From Nitrospirota bacterium (GTDB lineage: Bacteria; Nitrospirota; Nitrospiria; 2-01-FULL-66-17): a stretch of 64,000 nucleotides of DNA. A program made the position numbers and the translations under genes. The stretch lies in contig JBFLXB010000007.1 of assembly GCA_040757335.1 (NCBI GenBank), positions 1 to 64,000 of the forward strand, in the 5' to 3' direction. Positions 45,018-60,120 of this stretch are shown in pieces. The stretch's first letter is position 1. Every line of letters begins with the position of its first letter. A model generated the notes under the pieces. The model was not told where the DNA came from. It worked only from the letters and a program-made list of their open reading frames with translations, and did no database searches.

Positions 45018-45199
45018 GACAGACGCAATAGTTCGATGTGATGCTCCGAGAGGAGGGGCCAGGTATCCATGCAAGGTGTACTCGCGTGCCAACCCACGTT
45101 ACCATAGCCCCGCGGCGCAGAGCAAGACGGAGCGCGCCGAGACCGCCTCACCGTTCACAACTTGACCTGCCCCGGCCTCCAGCTATCCTAGGGACGCTT

Positions 45200-46684
45200 A
45201 TGCGCCTCCGAACCGGTCCGCTCCCTACCATTGACGTGCCCATTGAACACGATTTGCGGCAGATCGAACGCAGGGAATGGCACCTGTGGGTACTGACGCT
45301 CATCCTGCTTCTCGTCTTCGTCGGGGTGATCGTGCTCACTTCATACATCCTGCTCGAACACGAACCCGAGAGCTCGGGCCTTTTCCACCTGATGGTCTAT
45401 CGGGGTTTGCCCGGGCTTGTGGTGCTGATGGCGCTGTTTTGCGCCTACATTCTTCACACGCGCGTGACGTTCGGGCGCATGCGGCGCCTCTTTGAAAAAC
45501 AAGCCATGCGCGACGCGTTGACCGGCTTGCTCAACCGGCAATACGTGGGCGACCGCCTCGGCGAAGAACTGGCGCGTGCCGAGCGAAACCGCGGCGAGTT
45601 CGGCATCTTGCTCTGCGATCTCGACCATTTCAAGGCCGTCAACGACAGCCACGGTCATCACGCCGGGGACGAGGTGCTCAAAGAGGTCAGCAAGGCGGTG
45701 CTCGAAGCCACCAGGGGCTCGGACCTCGTCTTTCGCTGGGGTGGGGACGAGATCCTGGTGGTGTTGGCCCGGACCACTCGAGACGGCGTGCTCACGGCTG
45801 CGGATCGTATCCGCAAAGGCGTCAAGGCCGTGGGAGACCGCCGCCACGTGATGTTGGACGTCAGCGTCGGGGCGGCTTTGTATCCCGAGCACGCCCAAAC
45901 CGTCGACGCGCTGATCCGGCTCGCGGACCGCGCCCTGTACATCGCGAAGCGCGGCGGGGACAAGGTGCATATCGGAGAGGAAGAGTATCGATTGGACGAT
46001 CAGGCGGTGCAGGTCGTATTCCAAGCGGTGGTGGATCGGACCACCAACAAGGTATTGGGACACGAGGCTCTCAGCCGCGATCCCCAAGGGAAACTGAGTA
46101 TCGGCGAGCTCTTCCGGCGGTATCAGGCCGTGGGGCAGCTCAATGAACTCAAGTGCCTCTGCTTTCGCCTCCAACTCAACGCCGCAGCCGCGGCCGGGCT
46201 CAACCGCGTGTTTCTCAACGTAGACTTCGCGGTCCTGGATCTCCTCGAGGTCGTACCCAAACCGGCGGGGATCGAGGTGATTCTGGAAATTTCCGAGGCC
46301 GAGGCCGTTCGCGACGTGGAGCGCCACCTCCAGACCACCAGCGTGTGGCGGGCCCAGGGCTACAAGTTCGCCATCGACGATTTCGGAGCCGGGTTCATCT
46401 CGCTCCCGTTCATCGCGCGCCTGATCCCGGACTACATCAAAATGGACCGTTCCACGATCGTGCAGGCACGCGCTTCTCGGCAGTTTCTGACGTTTCTGCG
46501 CGATCTGGTGGTGGCGCTGCGCAATTACTCGAAGGAAGGCATTATCGCGGAGGGCATCGAGACTCCCGAGGAACTGCAGGTCGTGCGCGATCTTGGCATC
46601 GGCCCGGTTCAGGGCTTCCTGCTCGCCGAGCCGCAAACGCTGGTCGCCCGTCCCGACCACCGCGTGACCCGCCCGGCGGCGTAG
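45200..46684 (+). CDS. GGDEF-EAL protein (cyclic-di-GMP turnover)
   Basis: The 494-aa membrane protein has TM segments at about residues 30-52 and 62-85. The GGDEF domain (about 100-260) has WGGDEI at its active site; Ile replaces the usual Phe, so cyclase activity is uncertain. The EAL domain (about 265-485) keeps the signature EAL, the AIDDFGAG and KMDRS metal/base residues and the EGIET Glu, so phosphodiesterase activity is likely. It lies 1.3 kb from the PilZ/kinase region and could set c-di-GMP for those PilZ proteins. Confidence 0.92.
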   Translation: MRLRTGPLPTIDVPIEHDLRQIERREWHLWVLTLILLLVFVGVIVLTSYILLEHEPESSGLFHLMVYRGLPGLVVLMALFCAYILHTRVTFGRMRRLFEKQAMRDALTGLLNRQYVGDRLGEELARAERNRGEFGILLCDLDHFKAVNDSHGHHAGDEVLKEVSKAVLEATRGSDLVFRWGGDEILVVLARTTRDGVLTAADRIRKGVKAVGDRRHVMLDVSVGAALYPEHAQTVDALIRLADRALYIAKRGGDKVHIGEEEYRLDDQAVQVVFQAVVDRTTNKVLGHEALSRDPQGKLSIGELFRRYQAVGQLNELKCLCFRLQLNAAAAAGLNRVFLNVDFAVLDLLEVVPKPAGIEVILEISEAEAVRDVERHLQTTSVWRAQGYKFAIDDFGAGFISLPFIARLIPDYIKMDRSTIVQARASRQFLTFLRDLVVALRNYSKEGIIAEGIETPEELQVVRDLGIGPVQGFLLAEPQTLVARPDHRVTRPAA

Positions 46685-47965: not shown

Positions 47966-49180
47966 TCAGGCCGCGGCTGGTATGGGAAAGTCGTCGTCCC
48001 GCCGCCGATTCGCTTGCCGGCGGTCGTAGCTGACCGGATCAAGCGGGATGGAGACGATAAACGTGGTCTGACGCCCGAGTTCAGACTCCACCGAAATCGT
48101 GCCCCGGTGTTCTTCGATCACCTGGTGGCAGGCCAGGAGTCCTAACCCGCTGCCTTCGTGGCCTTTGGTCGTGAAGAACGGGGTGAACAGCTTTTCAATA
48201 TTTTCAGGCGGAATGCCTACCCCGGTGTCCGTGACGCGAACCGTTGCATGCGGAACCCCGCGAACAGTCACGGCACGGGTGCTGACGGTCAGGGTTCCAC
48301 CCGAGGGCATCGCCTGGATCCCGTTGAGCATCAGATTTAAGAACACCTGCTTCATTCGTTCCGAGTCCATACGCACCGGCTGCAAAGACGGATCCCCCTT
48401 CACGTCAACCGATACCCCAAGTGACCGGGCCTGGGGCTCCAAAAACGTCGCCATTTGGGCGAGCAGCGCGTTGAGGTCTCCTGCTTCGATCTTGAGCTCC
48501 GACTCGCCGGTAAACTTGGCGTAAGAGAGCAGTTGCCGGATCAACCCCCGGATGCGCTCGACCTCATTGACCGTCACCCGATACAACGTGCCCCAGTATT
48601 CCTCATCGGCTTGCGCGTCCTTCCGCTTGGACGGCAGCATTTGCAGAAACGTCGAAATCGGCACCAGGGGATTGTTGATCTCGTGAGCCAGGCCAGCCGC
48701 AAGCGTGCCGACGGCGCTCAGGCGGTTGGCGCGAGCCATCCGTTTCATGGTCTCGATCTTTTCCGCGTAGAGTCGGTCGCGTTCTTTGACCAGCACATAG
48801 CGCTCGATCCCTTCCCGAAACGCCATGCGCACTTCGCGCTCGTCGTAGGGTTTGGTGAGGTAGCGACAGACGTTGCCCAAGTTGATCGCGTCCACCACGC
48901 TCTCGAGGTCGGAATACGCCGTCAACAACATGCGCACCGTCTCGGGATAGGCTGCCCGCACCCGGGCGAGAAATTGCGTGCCCACCATGTCCGGCATGCG
49001 TTGATCGGACAGGACCAGCGCCACGTCGCGCGTGCCGAGGATATCAAGCCCTTCCGCTGCACTTGCCGCCGAGAGAATCGTGAACTCCCGCTTGAACTGC
49101 CGACGCAGCGTTTCCAACGCATACGGCTCGTCATCCACGTACAAAATCGGGTACGCCTTGTAGTCCAAATCCTCAAACAT
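47966..49180 (-). CDS. Response regulator-histidine kinase (REC-HisKA-HATPase)
   Basis: The 404-aa soluble protein has an N-terminal receiver domain with phospho-acceptor Asp59 (LSDQRMPD) and the LTKPYD Lys. It is followed by a coiled coil and a HisKA domain with His166 in GLAHEINNP. The HATPase domain carries N-box NLMLNGIQAM, G1 DTGVGIP and G2 GSGLGL. REC at the N-terminus of a kinase is the layout of Ralstonia PhcR/PhcQ. It lies 21 bp downstream of the hybrid kinase gene. There is no DNA-binding domain, so the final target is elsewhere. Confidence 0.93.
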   Translation of the reverse strand: MFEDLDYKAYPILYVDDEPYALETLRRQFKREFTILSAASAAEGLDILGTRDVALVLSDQRMPDMVGTQFLARVRAAYPETVRMLLTAYSDLESVVDAINLGNVCRYLTKPYDEREVRMAFREGIERYVLVKERDRLYAEKIETMKRMARANRLSAVGTLAAGLAHEINNPLVPISTFLQMLPSKRKDAQADEEYWGTLYRVTVNEVERIRGLIRQLLSYAKFTGESELKIEAGDLNALLAQMATFLEPQARSLGVSVDVKGDPSLQPVRMDSERMKQVFLNLMLNGIQAMPSGGTLTVSTRAVTVRGVPHATVRVTDTGVGIPPENIEKLFTPFFTTKGHEGSGLGLLACHQVIEEHRGTISVESELGRQTTFIVSIPLDPVSYDRRQANRRRDDDFPIPAAA

Positions 49181-49201
49181 TGCGGACTCCCGACTCCAGC
49201 T

Positions 49202-51916
49202 CTACGCGGCCTGCGACAACACCTGCGCCAACGGCAACACGACGGTAAACTCCGCGCCGTGGCCGGGCTCGCTTTTCACGTCGATCCGTCCTCCAACGTC
49301 CTGGACGATTTGATAGCTCACGGACAAGCCGAGCCCGGTGCCCTGGCCGACCGGCTTGGTCGTGAAAAACGGCTCGAACAACCGCGGCATATGTTCGGGC
49401 TTGATCCCCGGCCCGGAATCGCGCACGGTCACGGTCACCATATGTTCGTGGTCGCGAGACTCCACCCAGATCTCCCCGGATGGGCCCACGGCCTGGACCG
49501 CATTCTGCAGCAGGTTCATCCACACTTGGTTGAGTTTACCAGGAACTGCCAAAACCGGGGCGCTGGACTGCATGTCCGTGTGCAGGACGATCTGTTTACC
49601 CATCGTCGGACGGACGAGCCCAAGCGTCGACTCCAGTCCATCCCGAACCGAAACCGCGACCTTTTGATTCTGATCTTTACGAACAAACGTTTTGAGTTGC
49701 CCGATGATTTGCTCCGTGCGCGACACACCGTTTTTGACGATGCCCAACGACGCATCCACATCTTCCACCGCCTCAACCGCCTCCGCCTCGGCATGCTCTC
49801 GCACCAGCAGCGGCTTCAGCTCGTCCCACGCGGTTTGGAGCACACTCAGGCTGTTTTTGGCGAAGTTGATCGGGTTATTCATCTCATGCGCCATTCCAGC
49901 GACCAACATCCCCAGGCCCGCCATTTTCTCGGATTGCACCAGCTGCGCCTGCGTGGCCTTCAACTCCTCGAGCGCAGCTTCCAATGCTTCGTTGCGCTGC
50001 TGGATTTCTCTTTCCAACCGCCGAAGCTCTAAGAGCGATTTGATCTTGGCGCGCAACTCCTGGGCGTTAAACGGCTTGGTCAAATAGTCGTCGGCCCCGT
50101 GCTCCAAGCCTTCGATCTTCATCGCCATGTCGGCGCGCGCCGTGAGCAGGATGATCGGGATGTGCATGGTACGAGGGTCTTTGCGGATTTCTCGGCAGAG
50201 CTGATAGCCATCCATTTCCGGCATCATGACGTCGGAAACGATCACATCCGGAAGCTGCTCTGCCGCAACCCGCACCCCCTCGATTCCATTGGCGGCCTTG
50301 AGTACGCGGTATTCCCCCTGCAGCTCGAATGCGATAAATTCCCGCATATCGGGGTTGTCCTCCACGACGAGGAGCTGCCGACCGTTCGCTGGGGAGAGAC
50401 TGGTTTCCGCCATAACAGTGGGTTCCGTGGGTATACCGACCCCTTGGCGGTCGGCGGCTACACGCAGCGTTTGCGTCCAGTCGGCTGACCCGACATCGTC
50501 GCCCTCGGGCTGAGAAGCCTTCTCCTTGTCGGTTGCATTGTTCGGACCTTCCAGGAGTAACGGGACTGTGAACGTGAACGTTGACCCCCGCGTGGGTTCG
50601 CTTTCAACCTGGATCCGTCCGCCATGCAACTCCACGATCTCTTTGGCAAGAGCCAGACCAATACCTGTGCCCTCGTAACGGCGGTTGGTAGCAGAATCCA
50701 CCTGGGAAAACCTTTTGAAGAGCTTAGGCAGGTCTTTTTCCGCAATGCCGATGCCAGTGTCCGTGACCTGAACTCGCAACTGTCCATCAGCCGACCGGCC
50801 CCACGACAGGGTGACCCGACCACCGGAGTCGGTGAACTTGATTGCGTTAAACATCAAATTCAACACGACCTTCTCCAGACGATCTCGATCAAAGTAGACG
50901 CGGGGAGGCAATGGTGATTCGCCACGACCTGCAAGCTCAATGCGCTTTTTCTCCGCCATCGGCGCGACCGAGGCCACAAGCCCCCGGAAAAACGTCTCCA
51001 GGTTTCCCTGCCGGAACTCAAGTCTCATGCGCCCAGCGTCTAACTTGGTTAAATCGAGCAGGTTGTTGATCTGCTTAAGCAACCTTAGCCCGTTTTGATG
51101 CATCACCGTCGCGTGGCGCTTCACTCCATCAGATATCGGACCTGCCTCTCCCTTAAGCAATGACTCCAATGGCGCGAGAATTAGCGTAAGAGGCGTTCTT
51201 AACTCGTGACTAACCGTTGCGAAAAATTGTGTCTTGGCCGCATCGAGTTGTTTGAGTTCGTCAACTGCAGTTGCCAGTTGACTTCGCGTCTTCTCGAGCG
51301 TCTCATTGCTCCGCGTTAGTTCATGGCGTCCCAAGAATTCTCGGTACCTGAGACGATGCGAGAAAAAGCTGGCCGTCAATGCGATGATCATCGTCATCGT
51401 AAGAAAGAATGTGTTGTTCAGAAAGAGGGGCAGATTTTTCACGCTCTCGAACAACGCCAAAGGAACGAAATACGCGCTATAGATCACCGCATAGACTAAT
51501 GCGGTTCTCCCAATGCTCCAAGGCATAAGCAGACTGAACGCCAAAAACATCAGATTTAGTCCCGCATAGTACGTACTCGTATACCCCCCTGTCATCACGA
51601 CCATGGCCTCGATTATGAGGCTCATCGGCAGAATACTCGCGGCTCCCAACGCGTACATTGCCCGGTCGGCGACAGAGGTGTAGCAAAGGAGAAGTACAGC
51701 CAGATTGATCGAAGCACTCACAAGACGAAGGGCTAGGAACAAACCGAAATGCTCTGGAGCTACAACCGAGTCGAGTATCGCAAAGGCCGGGAAGAAAGGA
51801 ATGGCTAGTGCACAAATGATCTTGATTCGCGAAAGGCTAATGGCGTGGGTCTCCGACTCGAACGACCCGCTGAGAATACGGTCACCCTCCGGCTCGCGAG
51901 AGTCCGATGCTAACAT
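49202..51916 (-). CDS. Six-TM hybrid sensor with two histidine kinase modules
   Basis: The 904-aa protein has six predicted TM helices in residues about 31-186 with very short loops and no periplasmic domain, suiting a membrane-soluble ligand. Kinase 1 has His237 (ATVSHELRTP) and an ATPase domain with NLMFNAIKF, DTGIGIA and GTGIGL. A receiver domain with Asp562 (VSDVMMPE) follows. Kinase 2 has His677 (GMAHEMNNP) and its own ATPase domain with DSGPGIK and GTGLGL. The six-TM input resembles CqsS/LqsS/PhcS quorum sensors. It overlaps the upstream enzyme gene by 7 bp, indicating co-expression. Confidence 0.92.
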   Translation of the reverse strand: MLASDSREPEGDRILSGSFESETHAISLSRIKIICALAIPFFPAFAILDSVVAPEHFGLFLALRLVSASINLAVLLLCYTSVADRAMYALGAASILPMSLIIEAMVVMTGGYTSTYYAGLNLMFLAFSLLMPWSIGRTALVYAVIYSAYFVPLALFESVKNLPLFLNNTFFLTMTMIIALTASFFSHRLRYREFLGRHELTRSNETLEKTRSQLATAVDELKQLDAAKTQFFATVSHELRTPLTLILAPLESLLKGEAGPISDGVKRHATVMHQNGLRLLKQINNLLDLTKLDAGRMRLEFRQGNLETFFRGLVASVAPMAEKKRIELAGRGESPLPPRVYFDRDRLEKVVLNLMFNAIKFTDSGGRVTLSWGRSADGQLRVQVTDTGIGIAEKDLPKLFKRFSQVDSATNRRYEGTGIGLALAKEIVELHGGRIQVESEPTRGSTFTFTVPLLLEGPNNATDKEKASQPEGDDVGSADWTQTLRVAADRQGVGIPTEPTVMAETSLSPANGRQLLVVEDNPDMREFIAFELQGEYRVLKAANGIEGVRVAAEQLPDVIVSDVMMPEMDGYQLCREIRKDPRTMHIPIILLTARADMAMKIEGLEHGADDYLTKPFNAQELRAKIKSLLELRRLEREIQQRNEALEAALEELKATQAQLVQSEKMAGLGMLVAGMAHEMNNPINFAKNSLSVLQTAWDELKPLLVREHAEAEAVEAVEDVDASLGIVKNGVSRTEQIIGQLKTFVRKDQNQKVAVSVRDGLESTLGLVRPTMGKQIVLHTDMQSSAPVLAVPGKLNQVWMNLLQNAVQAVGPSGEIWVESRDHEHMVTVTVRDSGPGIKPEHMPRLFEPFFTTKPVGQGTGLGLSVSYQIVQDVGGRIDVKSEPGHGAEFTVVLPLAQVLSQAA

Positions 51917-54810
51917 CGGCGCCCGACAATAATTACCCCTTGTGGAGGATCTCCAAAGGTCGGACAGAGGTCGACGACTAAAAACCCGGCCTCCTCTACG
52001 AATGTCCTTAATTCGGATTCGCTGAAAAAGCGGAACAACCGTTGCTCTTCGAGATCAGTTAGCCGGGCTGCCGAATTGATGTAAGATTGCAGAGCGATCA
52101 GTATCGTATCCCGATCCAGTTCGGTAAAGTAAGGAAGATAGCTTCCTGCTTTAATCTTTTCGACGAGTCGATGGACTGGCAGTGACATATCCGTGTCTGG
52201 CAAGAGCGTCGAAGCCACCAACAAACCACCGGGGCGGAGGAGCCGTGCGCATTCCCTCAATACCAGTTCTGGTTCGTGGACATACGAGAGGAATAGGCTC
52301 GCGAGAATCTTTGAAACGCTTCCTGATTTAAAGGGAATGCGGTCACTATAGACCCCTAGATCGAGATTCGCTTCCACATACGAAAATGTCGCTTCGGACG
52401 CCACACTCGTATTCCGTAGATGTTTATTCCGCGCGGCATCAAGCGCTCGGCGCACAAAATCGATCAAAACAATCCTGGGGCCTTCAATCGCCCTTTGCCC
52501 CCGCTCGCTGCTCCGTTCAAGGTACCGGAGCCCAAAGTTCCCGGTACCGCCTCCAAGATCCACCACCAAGTCCGTCGGGCTGATATCGAGCAGTTCAATC
52601 TGGCGATCCATTAGCCCAAGGTACTCATCGGTCAATGTTATGATGTCGAATCCAATTTCGCCGGGTTTGGAGCCTAGCAAGTAAGACCGCCAATACCGCC
52701 TCAAATCGAGGTGCGGCTGTTGCACCCGTCCCCACTCGGAGCGTTCGAACTCCAGACGCTCGCTTTCGGATGGAATCCGTGGAGTAATCTGCGTGCCATA
52801 GTGGTCAGTCCAGATCAGACTGGTGATCAACCCGAATACGTCCAGCGCATCCTCGCCGCTTCTTACAATATGCCCGCACGGCACCTCATATACGTGCCGC
52901 CGAGCACTGGTTCGTATGCTCATTATGTCAAGCACACGGCGCCTATTGATCCAATAGTCATATTTCCCATAGATCCAGGTAACAGGAGTCGCTATTCTTG
53001 CCAGATCTCGGCGGGCGTCTTGGAGATACGCCATGCGGTTTAGAATAACGTCGCGGCAGAATCGGTCAAGGTCTACCAATTGACCAAGCACTTCCTTCAC
53101 TCCGAGATGTTCTCCGTTTTCAAAATCCACCAGGTAGTCGATCCCTCCTGTAGAGTTTCTCATGAGGTCGTCAGAATCTGATGCTCCCATGCAACTGATC
53201 CACTGACGTATAGTCGAGTTCTCTGACTCCGCGAGGAAGCGGCGCGCGGCAATCGAGGCCATACTAAAGGTGACAAGCGTTATGGTCTGGGGGGAGAAGA
53301 ACGGCGTCGAAGTTGCGTAGCGAACGGTTTCCCGAATATCGTCAGCAAGTTGAGATAAGGTGTAACATCCCATCTCCCCACAGTAGCCTGGGTCTGCTAG
53401 ATTGGTGCTTTCCCCGACGCTACTGATCCCGTCAAACCTAATTACCACAAGGTCCCGTCCCTGGTGCCGAAAGGTTTCGATGAGCGTCCGCGCCAGGAGC
53501 CCGGTTGTTTCCTTTCTTCGAGCAAACGCGGGAGGAATAATCACCACCGGAGCTTCGTGGAGCACGCCTTGCGGGGGGGGCCATGGTCCGGTGGCGTTCA
53601 CATATGCGGCGATTTCGTTGCCACGTTCGGTTCGATAGCGGACGGGATGTGCTCCAGAGGCAACGGCCGTGTGCTTCAGAAGGCGCTTACTGATAGTCTC
53701 CATGACTCGTCTTGTGCTACGAATGAGTGGTGCCGTGAAGGGGACGAGAGGGCGCCGAGCCTGAAGGTCGATTACGTCCACGTTGAGTTGGCATCTGTCG
53801 ATGTGGAATTGAACTCCGACTCGAAAATCGCCTGAGCGGAACGGACTCGCATAGACGACACTGGCTTGCTGGGCCGAACTGACGCCCTTCTCAGTCCGAA
53901 CCAAGAGGGCGGGTAGAAAGTCACCTGGACTTGGCACGTCCGCCCCGGAGCCCACGACAAACGAAGCACCCGAGTCGGTCGCCTCCAGCAGCTGGCGCTT
54001 TACTGGCATCAAATTCGCTGCATCGCTGCCGATCTCGACCACTCCAGTCATATCGAGTGTTGGGAGTCGACGCGGCTCCACCCGCCGTTCCGCAAACAGC
54101 ACTACCTCCGGCTCGATAATCCTGAGCTCTTGTCCCTGCATCGACACAACATATGATTCGAAGTAAAACCACTGTGCGGCGGAACGAATCCTCCCGTACA
54201 CAAGATCGTATCGATTCCACGCAGTTCGCGCTGACGGAGCCGCCAAATTCAGGACCAGGTCACCAGCGAACCTATCTGTCAAAGTCGCTGGCTGCGAGAG
54301 GTCGCGACCGCGCCATAAAAGCTCGACTGCTGCTTTTTCTCTAGCCGCCCTCTGAAATAGCGTGACCACGATGTGTGCGTTCCTCAGCGGCTTCAAGTTA
54401 GTTTCAGTGGCACCCCCTTTTTCCGCTAATCGACGCTGGATCTGTTTCACCGCAACAGCAACGTGCTGGTCTAAGAGATACGCCGTCCAGACCGAAAGAT
54501 TCGAACTCTGCGTCTCCCGAAACCGGACTCCAATGCCAGCTCCTTCACCGTGGGCAGGACCCGCTCGGCGAACTACTTCGCCCGTAAACTCAACGCAAAC
54601 GCGTCCGGATGGAAGCGTAAGCCGTCCCCGTATCACCGCATCACGTGGGTCCAGAGTTTCGTTTGAAAGGAATAGCCCCGCTGCACTCAGATTCCGCACA
54701 TCAGCCGAAGGACAGCCCGCTCCCACTAAGTCTGTGATGGGGAGTAAGCACCGCTTTCTCTGTGCCACGCGGCGATCGAGACTTGCCTTCTCAGGGTCTT
54801 CGCGGATCAT
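51910..54810 (-). CDS. Tandem PilZ / LuxD-like alpha-beta hydrolase / SAM-methyltransferase fusion
   Basis: The protein is 966 aa. PilZ 1 (residues about 12-100) has RVAQR (RxxxR) and NLSAAG (NxSxxG). PilZ 2 (about 240-340) has RVEPR and a shifted EATDSG box, ending VGVQF. Residues about 390-670 are an alpha/beta hydrolase with PPAFARRKET, VIRFDGISSVGES, Ser516 (TFSMAS), Asp618 (YGKYDYW) and His647 (PCGHIV). This resembles the LuxD acyl-ACP thioesterase/transferase. Residues about 735-966 are a class I methyltransferase (VDLGGGTGNFG). The start ATG overlaps the stop of a truncated transposase, so the native 5' end may have been altered by insertion. Enzyme roles are inferred from motifs. Confidence 0.88.
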   Translation of the reverse strand: MIREDPEKASLDRRVAQRKRCLLPITDLVGAGCPSADVRNLSAAGLFLSNETLDPRDAVIRGRLTLPSGRVCVEFTGEVVRRAGPAHGEGAGIGVRFRETQSSNLSVWTAYLLDQHVAVAVKQIQRRLAEKGGATETNLKPLRNAHIVVTLFQRAAREKAAVELLWRGRDLSQPATLTDRFAGDLVLNLAAPSARTAWNRYDLVYGRIRSAAQWFYFESYVVSMQGQELRIIEPEVVLFAERRVEPRRLPTLDMTGVVEIGSDAANLMPVKRQLLEATDSGASFVVGSGADVPSPGDFLPALLVRTEKGVSSAQQASVVYASPFRSGDFRVGVQFHIDRCQLNVDVIDLQARRPLVPFTAPLIRSTRRVMETISKRLLKHTAVASGAHPVRYRTERGNEIAAYVNATGPWPPPQGVLHEAPVVIIPPAFARRKETTGLLARTLIETFRHQGRDLVVIRFDGISSVGESTNLADPGYCGEMGCYTLSQLADDIRETVRYATSTPFFSPQTITLVTFSMASIAARRFLAESENSTIRQWISCMGASDSDDLMRNSTGGIDYLVDFENGEHLGVKEVLGQLVDLDRFCRDVILNRMAYLQDARRDLARIATPVTWIYGKYDYWINRRRVLDIMSIRTSARRHVYEVPCGHIVRSGEDALDVFGLITSLIWTDHYGTQITPRIPSESERLEFERSEWGRVQQPHLDLRRYWRSYLLGSKPGEIGFDIITLTDEYLGLMDRQIELLDISPTDLVVDLGGGTGNFGLRYLERSSERGQRAIEGPRIVLIDFVRRALDAARNKHLRNTSVASEATFSYVEANLDLGVYSDRIPFKSGSVSKILASLFLSYVHEPELVLRECARLLRPGGLLVASTLLPDTDMSLPVHRLVEKIKAGSYLPYFTELDRDTILIALQSYINSAARLTDLEEQRLFRFFSESELRTFVEEAGFLVVDLCPTFGDPPQGVIIVGRRC

Positions 54811-55799
54811 AGTGGGTTCTTTTCCGCACTTCGAGGCAATGGATGAAGGAACGCGGCCACGATCTTGAGCTTCAGGTACTCCTCGTCCCGGTAGCCGTAG
54901 GCCCGGCGCTGGAGGACGCGGATCTTGTTGTTGAGCCCCTCGACCAAGCCGAGGCTCACCTTGTTCTCGGGGTGGCAATAGGAGACGATCCCCTCCCAGT
55001 GCCGCTCGATCATCGCCGCGAACCGTTCGTAGGGCTTCAGCCGCTGCCACTTCAAGCTCGCCTTCCAGCGCTCGAAGAAGGCGCGGGCCCAGCCCGGGGT
55101 CTGGTAGCTCCAGAGTTGCCCGAAGGACTCCTTGAGCAGGTAGGCGGTGTTGAGCCGCTTGTTGGCCTTGAGCAGCTTACGCAGGTTCGCCCGCCCGTCG
55201 TGGGAGAGGTGCTCACGGCGGGAGAGCAGCGTGTAGCGCTGCCCCTTGATGAAGGCGCGGTCCTTGTTGGCCAGCCGCCGATATTCGCGGCGCCGCACCT
55301 CATCGAGCGCATCGCCGAGATGGCGCATGATGTGGAACTTATCAAAGACGATTCGGGCATTCGGCGCATTCTTGGCCAAGGAGTTCCGGAAGGGCTTCCA
55401 CATGTCCATCGCGGCGAGCTCGATGCGCGCCACCTTGTTCGCGCCCAACGCGGCGAAGAAGCCGTCCAGGTCCGCCTCAGTGCGGCCCCGGCCGCCCACC
55501 CAGATCGGCCGACCGCGCTCGAGGTCGCTCACCACCACCCGGTAGTCGTGGCCTTTGCGGATGGCGATCTCGTCGACGCCGATGGCCCGCGGCGCCGGGA
55601 GCCCGGCCTGCTCAACCTGTTGCTGCATGTAGATGGTGTCCAGGGCCTTCACCGTGCTGTCGTGAAGCCGCTCCAGCTCAGCGACCGCGGTGTTCGTCAT
55701 CTCGCGGCAGAGCGCGCCGACGTGCAGGGCGAACCGCTGCGTGTAGCGCGGATTCTTCGCCAGCCAGTCGAGCCGCTCTACGCAATCGAGGCGAGCCGC
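54807..55799 (-). pseudogene. Truncated ISL3-family transposase
   Basis: The reading frame is open for about 330 codons from 55799, with the first ATG at 55700. It matches the catalytic part of ISL3-type DDE transposases: VDEIAIRKGHDYRVVVSDLE (first Asp), MDMWKPFRNSL, FDKFHIMRHLGDALDEVRR and the C-terminal Glu region in GLVEGLNNKIRVLQRRAYGY. The N-terminal zinc finger/HTH portion (about 80-100 residues) is missing; an in-frame TAA sits at 55802-55800, at the junction with the acyl-CoA dehydrogenase gene. The C-terminus runs through the inferred IS end (GTGCGGAAAAGAACC) into the start of the PilZ-fusion gene. Confidence 0.88.
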
Positions 55800-55803
55800 T
55801 TAT
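54811..55803. mobile_element. ISL3-family insertion sequence remnant
   Basis: The left end GGTTCTTTTCCGCAC (about 54814-54828) resembles ISL3 terminal repeats. The corresponding right-end repeat is not found near 55800, and no target duplication is evident. The element is therefore a one-ended remnant lying between two PilZ-enzyme genes. Confidence 0.6.
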
Positions 55804-55813
55804 AGGATTCAGG

Positions 55814-57304
55814 TCAAAAACCGTAGTCTTTGGCGAGATCTCGGTACACGATCATTTTATGTATAGGCGATGGACCCTCGTAGAGCTGCATCAATTTGGC
55901 ATCGCGCATCAGTTTTTCCATCGGAAAGTCCTTCGAATAGCCGTAACCGCCAAAAAGATCCAGCGCTTCGCTTGTGACCCTCATCACCATATCGCCCGCG
56001 AAATCTTTGGCCATGGAGGAGGCCTTCGCGAATGACCGACCTGCGTCATGAGCGCACGCCGCACGCCAAGTCAAAAGGCGTGCGGCATCAATCTCACGCG
56101 CGAGGTCAGCTAATCGAAATTTTACATACTGGAACTCCGCCAACGGTTGATCGAATTGGATGCGTTTCTGTACGTGCCGTAGCGCGTGTTCCCACGCGGA
56201 GCGCGCGATACCCACCGCTCCGGCGGCAACGTTGATCCGAGACCGCGCGATCGAAGACAGTGCGACTTTGTATCCGCCTCCCTCCTGACCGAGCCGCTGG
56301 TCTTCCGGGATTTCCAAGTTCTCAAAGAAAATCTCGTTGGCGTTCGCCGCGCGCTGTCCCATCTTGTCTAGAGCCTTCCCCAACCTGATGCCCTTCGATC
56401 GTGCAGAAACGACGAACGCTGTAATTCCTTTGGTGCCCAGGCTGGGATCGAGGGTTGCGAAGATGACGTAATAATCGGCTACCGCTCCGTTCGTAATAAA
56501 ACACTTCGAGCCGTTCAAGACATAGACGGCTCCTTTTTTCTCGGCACGTGTCGCAATCCGGCTGGGATCCGATCCGGCATCCGGTTCCGTGAAACAGAAC
56601 GAGTAGAGGCTCAACCGTTCGCAATACGGCTTAAGAAATCGCGCTTTCTGCTCATCTGTTCCGGCGAGCAGGAGCGGGCCTACGCCGAGGAGGTTCACCA
56701 TGATGGAAGTGCCCATGGCCATGCACCCAGCACCGAGTTCTTCGGTGATCAGCGCAGTTTCGAAAAGTCCCCATCCTGACCCCCCGTACTCTTTCGGAAT
56801 ATATCCTGTAAAGAACCCTTCGCTAAATGCCTTGCGGACTACGTCCCATGGATACTCACCTGAGCGATCGTAGTTGGCAGCGACCGGTCGAATCGATTCG
56901 TCGGCAAAGCGACGCGCAGCGGCTTGAATTGCCCCTTGCTCAGCGCTTAACTCAAAGCTCACCCCTTTCGCGACGCCTGCTGCTGGTTGCGTGAACTCGA
57001 CTCCAATCTTCAGGTGCCGTGTCTGTCCCGCAATTGGTGATACGTGCCTGACGATTGCAGCCCTCGTCTCAACCCTTTCGCCTTCAACGATCTGCACCTT
57101 GGGAAGAGGGGTTCCGGGAAGAAAGTAGCTCCGATCAAGAGGGCTTCGGAACGAGAAACCCAGTGGGCTTCTGTCAAGAAGTGGCCACGAAGCCGAAGGT
57201 GGACTGCCGTATGGAAGGCTCAGCTCAATATGATGCGGCAGGCGTGCTAGATCATGTTGGTGTCTAGGAACCGCACGGCGCTCTTGGAAGTAACCTGTCG
57301 TCAC
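55814..57304 (-). CDS. Acyl-CoA dehydrogenase with N-terminal PilZ domain
   Basis: The protein is 496 aa. Residues about 5-108 are a PilZ domain with both c-di-GMP motifs, RAVPR (RxxxR) and DRSPLG (DxSxxG), ending IGVEFT. Residues about 118-496 are a complete acyl-CoA dehydrogenase: FCFTEPDAGSDPSRI (FAD/substrate loop), KCFITNGAVADYYVI, the QFDQPLAEFQ segment and catalytic Glu476 in LYEGPSPIHK. Such enzymes form an alpha-beta double bond in acyl-CoA. Direct fusion to PilZ suggests that c-di-GMP gates fatty-acyl oxidation. It lies 47 bp downstream of the FadL porin gene. I know of no common enzyme with this architecture. Confidence 0.93.
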   Translation of the reverse strand: MTTGYFQERRAVPRHQHDLARLPHHIELSLPYGSPPSASWPLLDRSPLGFSFRSPLDRSYFLPGTPLPKVQIVEGERVETRAAIVRHVSPIAGQTRHLKIGVEFTQPAAGVAKGVSFELSAEQGAIQAAARRFADESIRPVAANYDRSGEYPWDVVRKAFSEGFFTGYIPKEYGGSGWGLFETALITEELGAGCMAMGTSIMVNLLGVGPLLLAGTDEQKARFLKPYCERLSLYSFCFTEPDAGSDPSRIATRAEKKGAVYVLNGSKCFITNGAVADYYVIFATLDPSLGTKGITAFVVSARSKGIRLGKALDKMGQRAANANEIFFENLEIPEDQRLGQEGGGYKVALSSIARSRINVAAGAVGIARSAWEHALRHVQKRIQFDQPLAEFQYVKFRLADLAREIDAARLLTWRAACAHDAGRSFAKASSMAKDFAGDMVMRVTSEALDLFGGYGYSKDFPMEKLMRDAKLMQLYEGPSPIHKMIVYRDLAKDYGF

Positions 57305-57351
57305 ACAAGATCCTCTCAGCAGACAGCTGCCACAGGTATCACCGATCCCTC

Positions 57352-58770
57352 TTAAAAACTGAACCGAACACTCAGCACCACCGAGTGAACGACCGTGCGG
57401 TACGTCCCATTTGCTCGGGCGTCGATCGCAGGTATCGCTGGAGGGGAGCCTGCCGAACTGAAGTTGCTTCCATACTGATTGTCTTTTACTCGTTGGAACA
57501 GTATCAGGTGGTAACCGAGGTCAGCGCTCCACCGCGATGCTTTATACCCGGCACCAGCCGAAAACCAGTGCCGCGTCCCATCTGGCAAGATCGGGCTAAC
57601 CGTATTGTCTGGAATCGGAGAATAATCGAGCGTGTAGCCACCTCGCACAGCAAAGTTCGACCATTCGTACTGCGTCCCTACCCCATAGGCCATCGCATCG
57701 TCCCAAAGCAGCAGCGTCGTATCAGTGCCTGGAGGTGGCAACCCTTCGTCAAACCTAATGACCAGCTGGTCGATAGTTGACCAGCCGGTCCAAATAGCCT
57801 CTCCCTCAATATTCCACTGTGGTATAGGTCGAAAGAGCACGCCAGCCCGAACCGATGGCGGCAAAGTTATCGTGGTCTCTGCCTCACCGTCAGGGAAAAA
57901 CGGCGTGAAAGGCCCAGATGGGATTGTGAAGTCGGCCTCAAGGTCATTGAGATCAGCCCGCACCTCGCTCCGGTACGTGAGGCCAATTTGCCATCGGTCG
58001 TTGGGCGCAATAGTAGTTCCCAGGTTGTAGCCGAAGCCCACCGCATCTCCCTCTACTTCGACAGCACCCTCTGGATTTCCGGGCACCGGCCCGAATCCCG
58101 CATCTTCTCCGACTCGAGACAAGTTGATCTGTCGTCGCTCCGTCAACTTTACATAAGCTACGTTCACACCCCCTGCCACTGCGGCCTTCGGGTTTATCTG
58201 CCAGGATACCGTCGGGGTTAACATCGTGGCCTGGACACCAACATACGTGATCTGAAACCGGCCGTCCCAATCCGTGGGCCAATCCGTTGCGACTCCGAAC
58301 GGAGTATAGAGGCCGAGTCCTGCGGTCAAGTCGTGACCGATTGGCGCTGTGACGTACAATTGCGGCAGGAAAAACGCTTGGGGCTCCTCTTCCGCGCCTT
58401 GGCCTGTTTGAAGCGGGCTGTACTCGGTGTCAGGAACGATCACGGTTGTACCCACTAACACCTCCGAGGTACGGAGCTGGGAGATCCCTGCCGGGTTGTA
58501 GTAGATCGCTGAGGGGTCGTCTGCCTGTGCAGTAAACGCCCCTCCCTTCCCACTCGCCGCAGCACCCTGTGCGGTAACCGCGAATCCGGCGCCAAGTGCG
58601 CTCTGGGTAAAGAACGCTCCGCTGCAAGTCAGCACGAGAGCGTGCGCTACTACGCATCGGCTGCTCCGCAACAATGCCCAGCCACCACGAAGACCAACCA
58701 AACATTCGAGAAAACGACGGCAATTCCTTCCGAGTGCGTACGCTTCGGTACACGTCGTTTTGTAGGCCAT
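57352..58770 (-). CDS. FadL/OmpP1-family outer-membrane lipid porin
   Basis: The 472-aa protein has a long signal region (about residues 1-61, hydrophobic 40-58, ending SALG). The mature N-terminus GFAVTAQGAAASGKGGAFTA and DDPSAIYYNPAGISQL are the FadL hatch signatures. Amphipathic beta strands run to a C-terminal Phe (VVLSVRFSF), the outer-membrane insertion signal. FadL proteins take up long-chain fatty acids or other hydrophobics. It is first of the leftward lipid/PilZ/kinase cluster. Confidence 0.93.
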   Translation of the reverse strand: MAYKTTCTEAYALGRNCRRFLECLVGLRGGWALLRSSRCVVAHALVLTCSGAFFTQSALGAGFAVTAQGAAASGKGGAFTAQADDPSAIYYNPAGISQLRTSEVLVGTTVIVPDTEYSPLQTGQGAEEEPQAFFLPQLYVTAPIGHDLTAGLGLYTPFGVATDWPTDWDGRFQITYVGVQATMLTPTVSWQINPKAAVAGGVNVAYVKLTERRQINLSRVGEDAGFGPVPGNPEGAVEVEGDAVGFGYNLGTTIAPNDRWQIGLTYRSEVRADLNDLEADFTIPSGPFTPFFPDGEAETTITLPPSVRAGVLFRPIPQWNIEGEAIWTGWSTIDQLVIRFDEGLPPPGTDTTLLLWDDAMAYGVGTQYEWSNFAVRGGYTLDYSPIPDNTVSPILPDGTRHWFSAGAGYKASRWSADLGYHLILFQRVKDNQYGSNFSSAGSPPAIPAIDARANGTYRTVVHSVVLSVRFSF

Positions 58771-59362: not shown

Positions 59363-59461
59363 TGCGCATATATGCCGGGGGCACCCGACATTGACAAGCC
59401 GAACGAAATGCCTCTATGATTGCATCATTATGATGAAACATATGACGCATCGAGGTCACCG

Positions 59462-59722
59462 ATGAAGGCGATCACGTTAAGGAACCTTCCGGCCCCAATT
59501 GCTCGTCTCATCCAGCTAAAAGCCAAACAGGACAAGAAAAGTATCAACAAAACCGTCGTGGGTTTGTTAGAGGAGTGCACGGGGGTTCGGGGGCCGAAAC
59601 CCGAAAAGCCCGAGTATCACGATCTGGATAGCCTGGCGGGATCCTGGACGACCGAAGAGGCGGCCAGGTTTGAGCAGGCCTTGGCGCAGCAGCGCGAGAT
59701 CGACCCCGATGTGTGGAAATGA
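59462..59722 (+). CDS. Ribbon-helix-helix antitoxin (VapB-like)
   Basis: The 86-aa protein starts at ATG 59462. The N-terminal RHH fold is MKAITLRNLPAPIARLIQLK followed by the helix KSINKTVVGLLEE. The C-terminal part, with DLDSLAGSWTTEEAARFEQ, is acidic and should wrap the toxin, as in FitA/StbC-type antitoxins. The stop overlaps the toxin start (AAATGATG), the usual coupling for a type II module. It probably autoregulates the operon. It lies between the two ssrA copies. Confidence 0.88.
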   Translation: MKAITLRNLPAPIARLIQLKAKQDKKSINKTVVGLLEECTGVRGPKPEKPEYHDLDSLAGSWTTEEAARFEQALAQQREIDPDVWK

Positions 59723-60120
59723 TGCGGGCGATGCTCGATACGTCGGCCTACTCCGCCTTCATGAGAGGTCACGCCGACATCCACCGCGTCCTCCAGCAGG
59801 TCGACGAGATCTGCTTCTGTCCGATCATTCTGGGAGAACTGCTCGCAGGCTTTTCGAGAGGTGGTCACAAGAAAAGGAACGAGAAGGAGCTGGAGCGGTT
59901 TCTCGCATCGCCGCGCGTCGCACTCGTGAACTTGGACCAAGAGACGGCTGAGCGATACGCCGTCATTCTGAATTCGTTGTGGAAAGCAGGAACCCCCATC
60001 CCGACCAATGACCTCTGGATTGCTGCGAGCGCGATGCAACACGGACTGCGCGTGGTCACCACGGACGCCCATTTTCAGAAAGTGACTCAGGTCATCGTGG
60101 ATCACTTTCCGCCCCAGTAG
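59719..60120 (+). CDS. PIN-domain toxin (VapC-like ribonuclease)
   Basis: The 133-aa protein carries a PIN domain with the four acidic metal ligands: Asp in MLDTSAYSAF (about residue 9), Glu in IILGELLAGF (about 42), Asp in PTNDLWIAASA (about 100) and Asp in TTDAHFQ (about 118). VapC proteins cut specific RNAs when not held by the antitoxin. The frame is intact, and length is normal. It is followed 100 bp later by the SNF2 helicase gene on the same strand. Confidence 0.92.
   Translation: MMRAMLDTSAYSAFMRGHADIHRVLQQVDEICFCPIILGELLAGFSRGGHKKRNEKELERFLASPRVALVNLDQETAERYAVILNSLWKAGTPIPTNDLWIAASAMQHGLRVVTTDAHFQKVTQVIVDHFPPQ

Follow-up and report, generated by a model that had tools for sequence, protein, structure and literature searches.

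Structure and organization of the locus

The window analysed here, i.e., the whole stretch of 64,000 nucleotides at positions 1 to 64,000 of contig JBFLXB010000007.1 of a Nitrospirota bacterium (assembly GCA_040757335.1), harbors a candidate locus for fatty-acyl signalling gated by cyclic di-GMP (c-di-GMP). The initial annotation, made from the sequence alone, had assigned to this locus five leftward genes, encoding a FadL-type transporter, an acyl-CoA dehydrogenase (ACAD) and a LuxD-methyltransferase, each fused to PilZ domains, a kinase with six transmembrane (TM) segments, and a REC-kinase. All five genes were found where they had been placed, on the - strand and with the domains attributed to them, as was the 7-bp overlap between the enzyme and the kinase genes (Table 1). 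The locus is not uninterrupted, however, since the remnant of an ISL3-family transposase, overlooked at first, lies between the PilZ-ACAD and the PilZ-LuxD-methyltransferase genes.

Table 1. Genes and domains of the locus, with their positions in the window.
Feature	Position	Strand	Evidence or reading
FadL/OmpP1-type outer-membrane transporter, 472 aa	57352..58770	-	PF03349 (Toluene_X) 2.2e-62
PilZ-acyl-CoA dehydrogenase (PilZ-ACAD), 496 aa, GTG start	55814..57304	-	ACAD domains to 1.8e-42
ISL3-family transposase remnant	54809..55700	-	PF01610 8e-72; NF033550 model positions 88-369 only
PilZ-PilZ-LuxD-methyltransferase (P0005), 966 aa	51910..54810	-	candidate for the c-di-GMP-gated synthesis of an acyl signal; ATG 54810 as true start, last base 51910
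PilZ domain 1, residues 12-105	54496..54777	-	PF07238 1.3e-8; RVAQR + NLSAAG
PilZ-like domain 2, degenerate, ~residues 241-346	53773..54090	-	family-profile comparison
LuxD-type acyl-ACP thioesterase domain, ~residues 386-690	52741..53655	-	triad Ser516, Asp618, His647
SAM-dependent class I methyltransferase domain, ~residues 740-950	51961..52593	-	PF13489 2.2e-10
Overlap of synthase stop and kinase start, 7 bp	51910..51916	-	reading-frame coordinates; read as translational coupling
Hybrid sensor kinase (P0001), 904 aa	49202..51916	-	6 TM (MASE8-like)-HisKA-HATPase-REC-HisKA-HATPase
REC-HisKA-HATPase relay kinase (P0002), 404 aa	47966..49180	-	Pfam domains
ACP, acyl carrier protein; SAM, S-adenosylmethionine.

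The ISL3 remnant has lost its 5' part (roughly the first 87 residues of the family model have no counterpart), is present as a single copy in the draft genome of the window, and is not found in the orthologous loci L039-L041; it is the reason why the ACAD and LuxD-methyltransferase genes lie 1 kb apart in this genome. In three relatives (G005, G011 and G025) the genes for ACAD, PilZ-LuxD-methyltransferase, six-TM hybrid kinase and 404-aa REC-kinase follow each other in unbroken order, the first two being contiguous (a 4-bp overlap in one case, 25 bp and 34 bp in the others); comparison of these sequences therefore suggests that the element is probably a late insertion that split an ancestral operon. 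The gene order is far above chance, as it recurs in independent genomes.

The first PilZ domain of the LuxD-methyltransferase keeps both c-di-GMP motifs that were looked for (RxxxR and (D/N)xSxxG, PF07238), located at residues 14 and 40. The second domain emerges when a profile of five orthologues is compared with the PilZ profile (96%), the window segment alone reaching 2%, and the AlphaFold model of residues 1-390 is too poor to judge it (predicted local distance difference test, pLDDT, 51). The LuxD part of the window protein alone has no Pfam match (PF02273); 21 out of 25 members of the family match this entry, and the best PDB match of a 25-sequence LuxD-methyltransferase profile is 1THT (9e-35), the myristoyl-ACP thioesterase of V. 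harveyi, which also occupies the first two Foldseek ranks for the AlphaFold model of the enzyme (pLDDT 85). The triad residues correspond to alignment columns S131, D233 and H262, which are invariant in the orthologues and align with the nucleophile, the acid and the histidine of 1THT. The LuxD identity proposed at the outset is thus borne out in sequence and fold, and the domain belongs, as judged from sequence and model, to the fatty-acyl-ACP thioesterase family, with a predicted hydrolase activity. As to the methyltransferase domain, its SAM motif DxGxGxG is invariant in the family alignment, and its best Foldseek matches (RebM, AtmM, Coq5 and UbiG) share a generic fold.

A second type of LuxD-methyltransferase, about 1400 aa long, is encoded at L050, L089, L093, L094 and L096-L098; the L050 protein carries PAS and PilZ domains and has its LuxD nucleophile serine replaced, its LuxD domain being likely non-catalytic or altered. 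The single open reading frame (ORF) of 1641 aa in L048 was considered as a synthase-kinase fusion and discarded, being due to a frameshift at the end of the methyltransferase domain (alignment row L019). A plasmid search with the LuxD-methyltransferase as query gave no lead.

The hybrid kinase, whose orthologues are 51-56% identical to it, has two predicted phospho-histidines, His237 in the first HisKA domain and His677 in the second. Hydropathy averaged over eight homologues reveals six TM peaks between residues 34 and 182, confirming the six-TM input, which is a bare TM domain devoid of a periplasmic one. Its match to MASE8 (PF20968) reaches 15.1 bits vs. a cut-off of 26.2, all four orthologues match weakly, and the homologous kinase of L134 passes the cut-off with 26.9 bits; the literature on MASE8 offered no further clue. 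The REC-kinase is 404 aa long in all four orthologous loci, accompanies the hybrid kinase in L039-L041 as well as in the loci with other enzymes described below, and lacks a DNA-binding domain according to Pfam. In L134 (12440-17030), the region downstream of the REC-kinase encodes yet another kinase, the third, along with two regulators, one with sigma-54 and one with REC-HD-GYP domains; these genes resemble those of other Nitrospirota LuxD-methyltransferase loci and join the two operon types.

In the PilZ-ACAD, the PilZ domain spans approximately residues 1-112 and the ACAD part, with three domain matches, residues 121-490. The N-terminal PilZ domain is not detected by Pfam; comparison with the PilZ profile gives 84-95% probability (controls ≤1.4%), and the motifs RAVPR (residue 10) and DRSPLG (residue 44) are kept. 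The ACAD gene lies directly upstream of that of the LuxD-methyltransferase in L039, L040 and L041. The idea that both lipid enzymes are PilZ-fused holds for the window, where both keep the motifs, but only partly for its relatives, since the ACAD PilZ domain is present in two of the four orthologues and missing in L039 and L040. Similarly, the transporter is indeed part of the window locus but flanks such loci only in the family of the window: it is not adjacent to the LuxD-methyltransferase orthologues of L039-L041, and it adjoins the PilZ-alpha-oxoamine synthase locus L137 of the same family. FadL and the PilZ domain of ACAD are accessory, outside the conserved core. FadL is reported to affect extracellular long-chain N-acylhomoserine lactones in Sinorhizobium (PMC9938287); here, where its association is local only, it may import a hydrophobic signal.

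Association between PilZ-fused enzymes and kinases

LuxD-methyltransferase fusions were disclosed in 92 of the 396 genomes of the phylum Nitrospirota. Of 237 Myxococcota, up to 38 contain one, as do 5 of 247 Spirochaetota and two acidobacterial metagenome-assembled genomes. On initial inspection, many of the myxococcal matches were confined to LuxD, and the five contexts of this kind that were read all contain the methyltransferase, too. A histidine kinase is encoded in the operon at 53 of the 58 readable PilZ-LuxD-methyltransferase loci (window included; L052, whose contig ends there, and L112, on the same contig as L041, left out), namely 28/31 in Nitrospirota, 19/19 in Myxococcota, 6/6 in Spirochaetota and 0/2 in Acidobacteriota. 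The co-occurrence of PilZ enzymes and kinases suspected from the window therefore extends over several phyla, and it is not the case that the kinases never accompany the enzymes. The coupling of enzyme and kinase genes is well supported.

The organization of these operons varies between lineages. In Nannocystis and other Myxococcota the synthase and kinase genes overlap by 4 bp, and at some Nannocystis loci the kinase domains are hidden inside an overlong naive ORF. In most Nitrospirota outside the window type, the kinase input is HisKA_7TM, or GAF only, and the genes after the kinase often specify a response regulator of the sigma-54 type and a REC-HD-GYP protein; in Nannocystis and in Spirochaetes, the kinase itself carries HD-GYP. 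In the latter, an acyl ligase gene is located after the synthase and before the kinase (L109, L113, L191-L194), and a 94-aa ORF in L109 is, in our reading, an ACP. A fusion of PilZ with β-ketoacyl-ACP synthase (KAS) III is located between the LuxD-methyltransferase and the kinase in L053 (7158-8756) and L092 (6933-8498), whose operons thus hold two PilZ acyl enzymes each.

The reverse search, performed with the window kinase on 197 genomes of its class, returned 23 places at E≤1e-160, three of which lie at contig ends (G046, G044:C325 and G026:C242). A PilZ-fused enzyme is encoded at all 20 readable loci, directly upstream of the kinase in 17 and directly downstream, in the same cluster, in the remaining three (one each in L135, L144 and L146). 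The enzyme is not the same in all cases: it is a LuxD-methyltransferase in the window and in L039-L041, a PhcB-type methyltransferase in L134, L135 and L136, an alpha-oxoamine synthase in L137 and L143, a 3-hydroxy-3-methylglutaryl-CoA (HMG-CoA) reductase in L139-L142, a KAS III in L145 and L146, and a FabF-type KAS together with an ACP-PilZ-thioesterase in L138, while in L144 a heme-oxygenase-like enzyme, an ACAD and an aldehyde dehydrogenase are each fused to PilZ. The enzymes of L140, L142, L143 and L146 were assigned by similarity to Pfam-typed homologues, and the PilZ domain was not scanned separately in L140-L143. The strongest result of the analysis is, therefore, that the relay is constant and the PilZ-fused enzyme variable. 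Most of the enzymes exchanged in this way would use acyl-CoA or acyl-ACP, judging from the families to which they belong. In L144 (9562-19856) the three successive fusions are placed between two hybrid kinases, and their product, derived from a fatty acid, may be an alkene or of the aldehyde type.

Concerning the surroundings of the locus, a GGDEF-EAL protein (GGDEF 3.6e-42, EAL 1.1e-27), possibly a local c-di-GMP enzyme, is encoded 1.3 kb away at 45038-46684 on the + strand, with tRNA genes and an RNase PH gene in between. Directly upstream of FadL lies a probable toxin-antitoxin pair with a PIN-domain protein (59420-60120, + strand). Among the other long PilZ genes of the window genome, those whose neighbourhoods were read have no comparable enzyme-kinase module.

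Relationship with Phc and other known systems

The initial annotation had likened the locus to the Phc quorum-sensing system of Ralstonia, in which a methyltransferase synthase is likewise followed by a multi-TM kinase and by REC proteins lacking a DNA-binding domain, and which senses a secreted methyl ester (PMC11960443). The PilZ-methyltransferase of L135 retrieved a 468-aa methyltransferase (P0008, 2e-44) encoded on a Paraburkholderia plasmid (L152), in an operon whose next genes specify a 445-aa kinase and two REC proteins, in the order of the phc operon. PhcB of Ralstonia is 464-468 aa long (PMC8578825), and Paraburkholderia possesses homologues of PhcB and PhcQ, with Arg22 of PhcB being conserved (PMC6989110). 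Residue 22 of P0008 is an arginine; we call this protein PhcB-like on account of this residue, its length, the order of its operon and its homology to the PilZ-methyltransferases. The TM family of the window kinase aligns with the L152 kinase over 192 columns (hhalign 99.1%, the reference being Paraburkholderia and not Ralstonia PhcS), and the TM part of the latter also matches MASE8 weakly; the phospho-histidine is residue 237 in the window kinase, 233 in that of L152 and 230 in Ralstonia PhcS (PMC11960443). Moreover, the REC domain of P0002 shares 37% identity with the PhcQ-like P0007 of L152 over 171 aa.

The likeness of kinase and REC domain to Phc is hence one of homology to a Paraburkholderia Phc-type operon. 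The same is not true of the enzyme: P0005 and the PhcB-like P0008 do not align (best E 0.76), thus ruling out orthology of the window methyltransferase to PhcB, so that it is an analogue, and not a homologue, of the Phc synthase. Since sensor and REC match L152 and the enzyme does not, the sensor and relay appear to be Phc-related and the synthase a replacement. Further differences are that the window synthase joins LuxD and an unrelated methyltransferase to PilZ with c-di-GMP motifs, that the window kinase is a two-kinase hybrid, and that no phcA target is known, PhcA being the LysR-type target of the Phc system, whose signal is a 3-hydroxy fatty-acid methyl ester. The PhcB-like methyltransferase of L152 (6854-8260) has an N-terminal stretch of some 95 residues that aligns with the segment preceding the methyltransferase in the PilZ-methyltransferases. 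This stretch is possibly a degenerate PilZ domain (profile support is weak, 16-26%, and 0.2% alone), and such a domain in PhcB itself would be the place of the adaptive mutation R22C (PMC6989110).

Other systems share single traits with the locus. As in CqsA/CqsS and LqsA/LqsS, an acyl-using synthase is located beside a multi-TM kinase. No pyridoxal-phosphate-dependent alpha-oxoamine synthase is present at the window locus; PilZ-fused ones occur in L137 and L143, and in L137 a synthase of the CqsA superfamily (2wk8, 6e-38) precedes the same kinase pair, although it resembles serine palmitoyltransferase and BioF/Kbl more closely than CqsA (NF005526, 230 bits vs. a cut-off of 428). The window thioesterase domain has the fold and the triad of LuxD of the bacterial lux operons but is fused to PilZ and methyltransferase, without LuxC/LuxE or luciferase. 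LvrA of Leptospira is the best named match to the hybrid kinase and LvrB matches the second kinase (HK-REC and REC-HK, HK being histidine kinase); however, the scores (335 of 1200 and 118 of 500 bits) are far below the curated cut-offs, and the definition of that system holds no synthase. Finally, in RpfF/RpfC/RpfG (diffusible signal factor) an acyl signal and a multi-TM hybrid kinase are combined with an HD-GYP output, like that of the Nannocystis and Spirochaete kinases, and RpfF is a crotonase-fold enzyme on which c-di-GMP is not known to act through a fused PilZ domain.

Proposed mechanism, alternatives and significance

The locus is very probably a coherent functional unit, and we favour, with moderate confidence, c-di-GMP-gated synthesis of an acyl signal by the PilZ-LuxD-methyltransferase, its sensing by the coupled kinase and relay to the REC-kinase. 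From the genes we infer catalysis, product, ligand, c-di-GMP effect, phosphotransfer and diffusibility as follows. The LuxD domain would take a fatty-acyl chain from acyl-ACP, into which ACAD may first introduce a 2,3-double bond, and the methyltransferase would methylate the product; the resulting acyl signal would perhaps be the methyl ester of a fatty acid. The PilZ domains, which on the strength of their motifs probably bind c-di-GMP, would switch or localise the enzymes, so that the signal would be made in one c-di-GMP state only. The six-TM input would read the signal, or a membrane state caused by it, and phosphate would pass from the kinase REC domain to the second REC-kinase and then to regulators encoded elsewhere; in related loci, an HD-GYP phosphodiesterase output would close a c-di-GMP feedback loop. 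That the product is acyl-derived seems likely, and that the adjacent kinase senses it only slightly less so; whether the signal diffuses between cells is close to an even question, leaning towards the negative, and a methyl ester is a tentative guess at its nature.

The presence of c-di-GMP functions on both sides, PilZ on the enzymes and HD-GYP on kinases and regulators, supports this scheme. Several observations weigh against it: HMG-CoA reductase, which fits a fatty-acid signal least, is among the exchanged enzymes; there is no conserved exporter; the window locus holds no DNA-binding output; the substrate of the methyltransferase is not readable from its sequence, given its best folds; some LuxD-methyltransferase paralogues (e.g., L050) lack the LuxD nucleophile; and neither the acidobacterial genes nor those at three Nitrospirota loci (L090, L091 and L099) have a neighbouring kinase.

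The main alternative, which we regard as unlikely, is membrane-lipid homeostasis, with PilZ enzymes tuning membrane or envelope lipids (through chain release, methylation or desaturation) with c-di-GMP and the kinase, like DesK, responding to the membrane's physical state instead of a signal molecule. A bare TM input without a periplasmic domain, FadL and ACAD, which fit fatty-acid turnover, and the bulk-lipid enzymes HMG-CoA reductase and FabF among the exchanged ones would agree with it, but dedicated fusions tied to the kinase by overlaps of 4-7 bp, chemistries as unlike as those of an alpha-oxoamine synthase and a methyltransferase around one kinase type, and a TM domain in common with the kinase of a Phc-type operon, which senses a secreted methyl ester (PMC11960443), all speak against it. 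It is still less probable that the locus serves the biosynthesis of a lipid natural product or of the envelope, merely regulated by the adjacent two-component system, whose kinase would respond to an unrelated cue. KAS III, acyl ligase, ACP, radical SAM and HMG-CoA reductase partners do occur in some loci, and PilZ could do no more than couple production to biofilm growth; yet most loci consist of synthase and kinase only and hold no genes for tailoring, transport or resistance, a DNA-binding domain is absent from the REC-kinase, and it is the kinase that is fixed and the enzyme that varies. The idea that lipid and signalling genes unrelated to each other came together by chance, partly through the insertion sequence, can be dismissed in spite of the ISL3 remnant and of the non-conserved FadL and upstream toxin-antitoxin/helicase genes, since the same order occurs without insertion sequence in three relatives and synthase-kinase adjacency recurs in several phyla (many Nitrospirota families, Myxococcota and Spirochaetota).

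No report of LuxD-methyltransferase fusions with kinases was retrieved by a full-text literature search, which left most of the subscription literature outside and is weak evidence of absence; spot-checked literature on PilZ, PhcB and CqsA describes no PilZ-fused signal synthase, and a 2026 quorum-sensing review does not mention PilZ, LuxD or Nitrospira. The pairing found in three phyla seems to constitute a so far undescribed family of systems for chemical signalling based on fats. It might even represent, although we would not put this at better than even, a widespread modular class in which a constant relay of multi-TM kinase and REC-kinase is combined with interchangeable, mostly acyl-using PilZ-fused enzymes, c-di-GMP directly gating chemically different autoinducers and the kinase output feeding back on c-di-GMP, with the Phc type as one branch.

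Quorum sensing usually acts on c-di-GMP levels. Since the putative signal synthases carry c-di-GMP receptor domains themselves, with the sensor encoded in their operon, control would also be exerted in the opposite direction, from c-di-GMP to the signal. The pattern may help to understand how Nitrospirota, Myxococcota and uncultured lineages communicate, it would predict new lipid autoinducers from the enzyme type, and it would place the poorly understood Phc and alpha-hydroxyketone systems in one testable modular frame.

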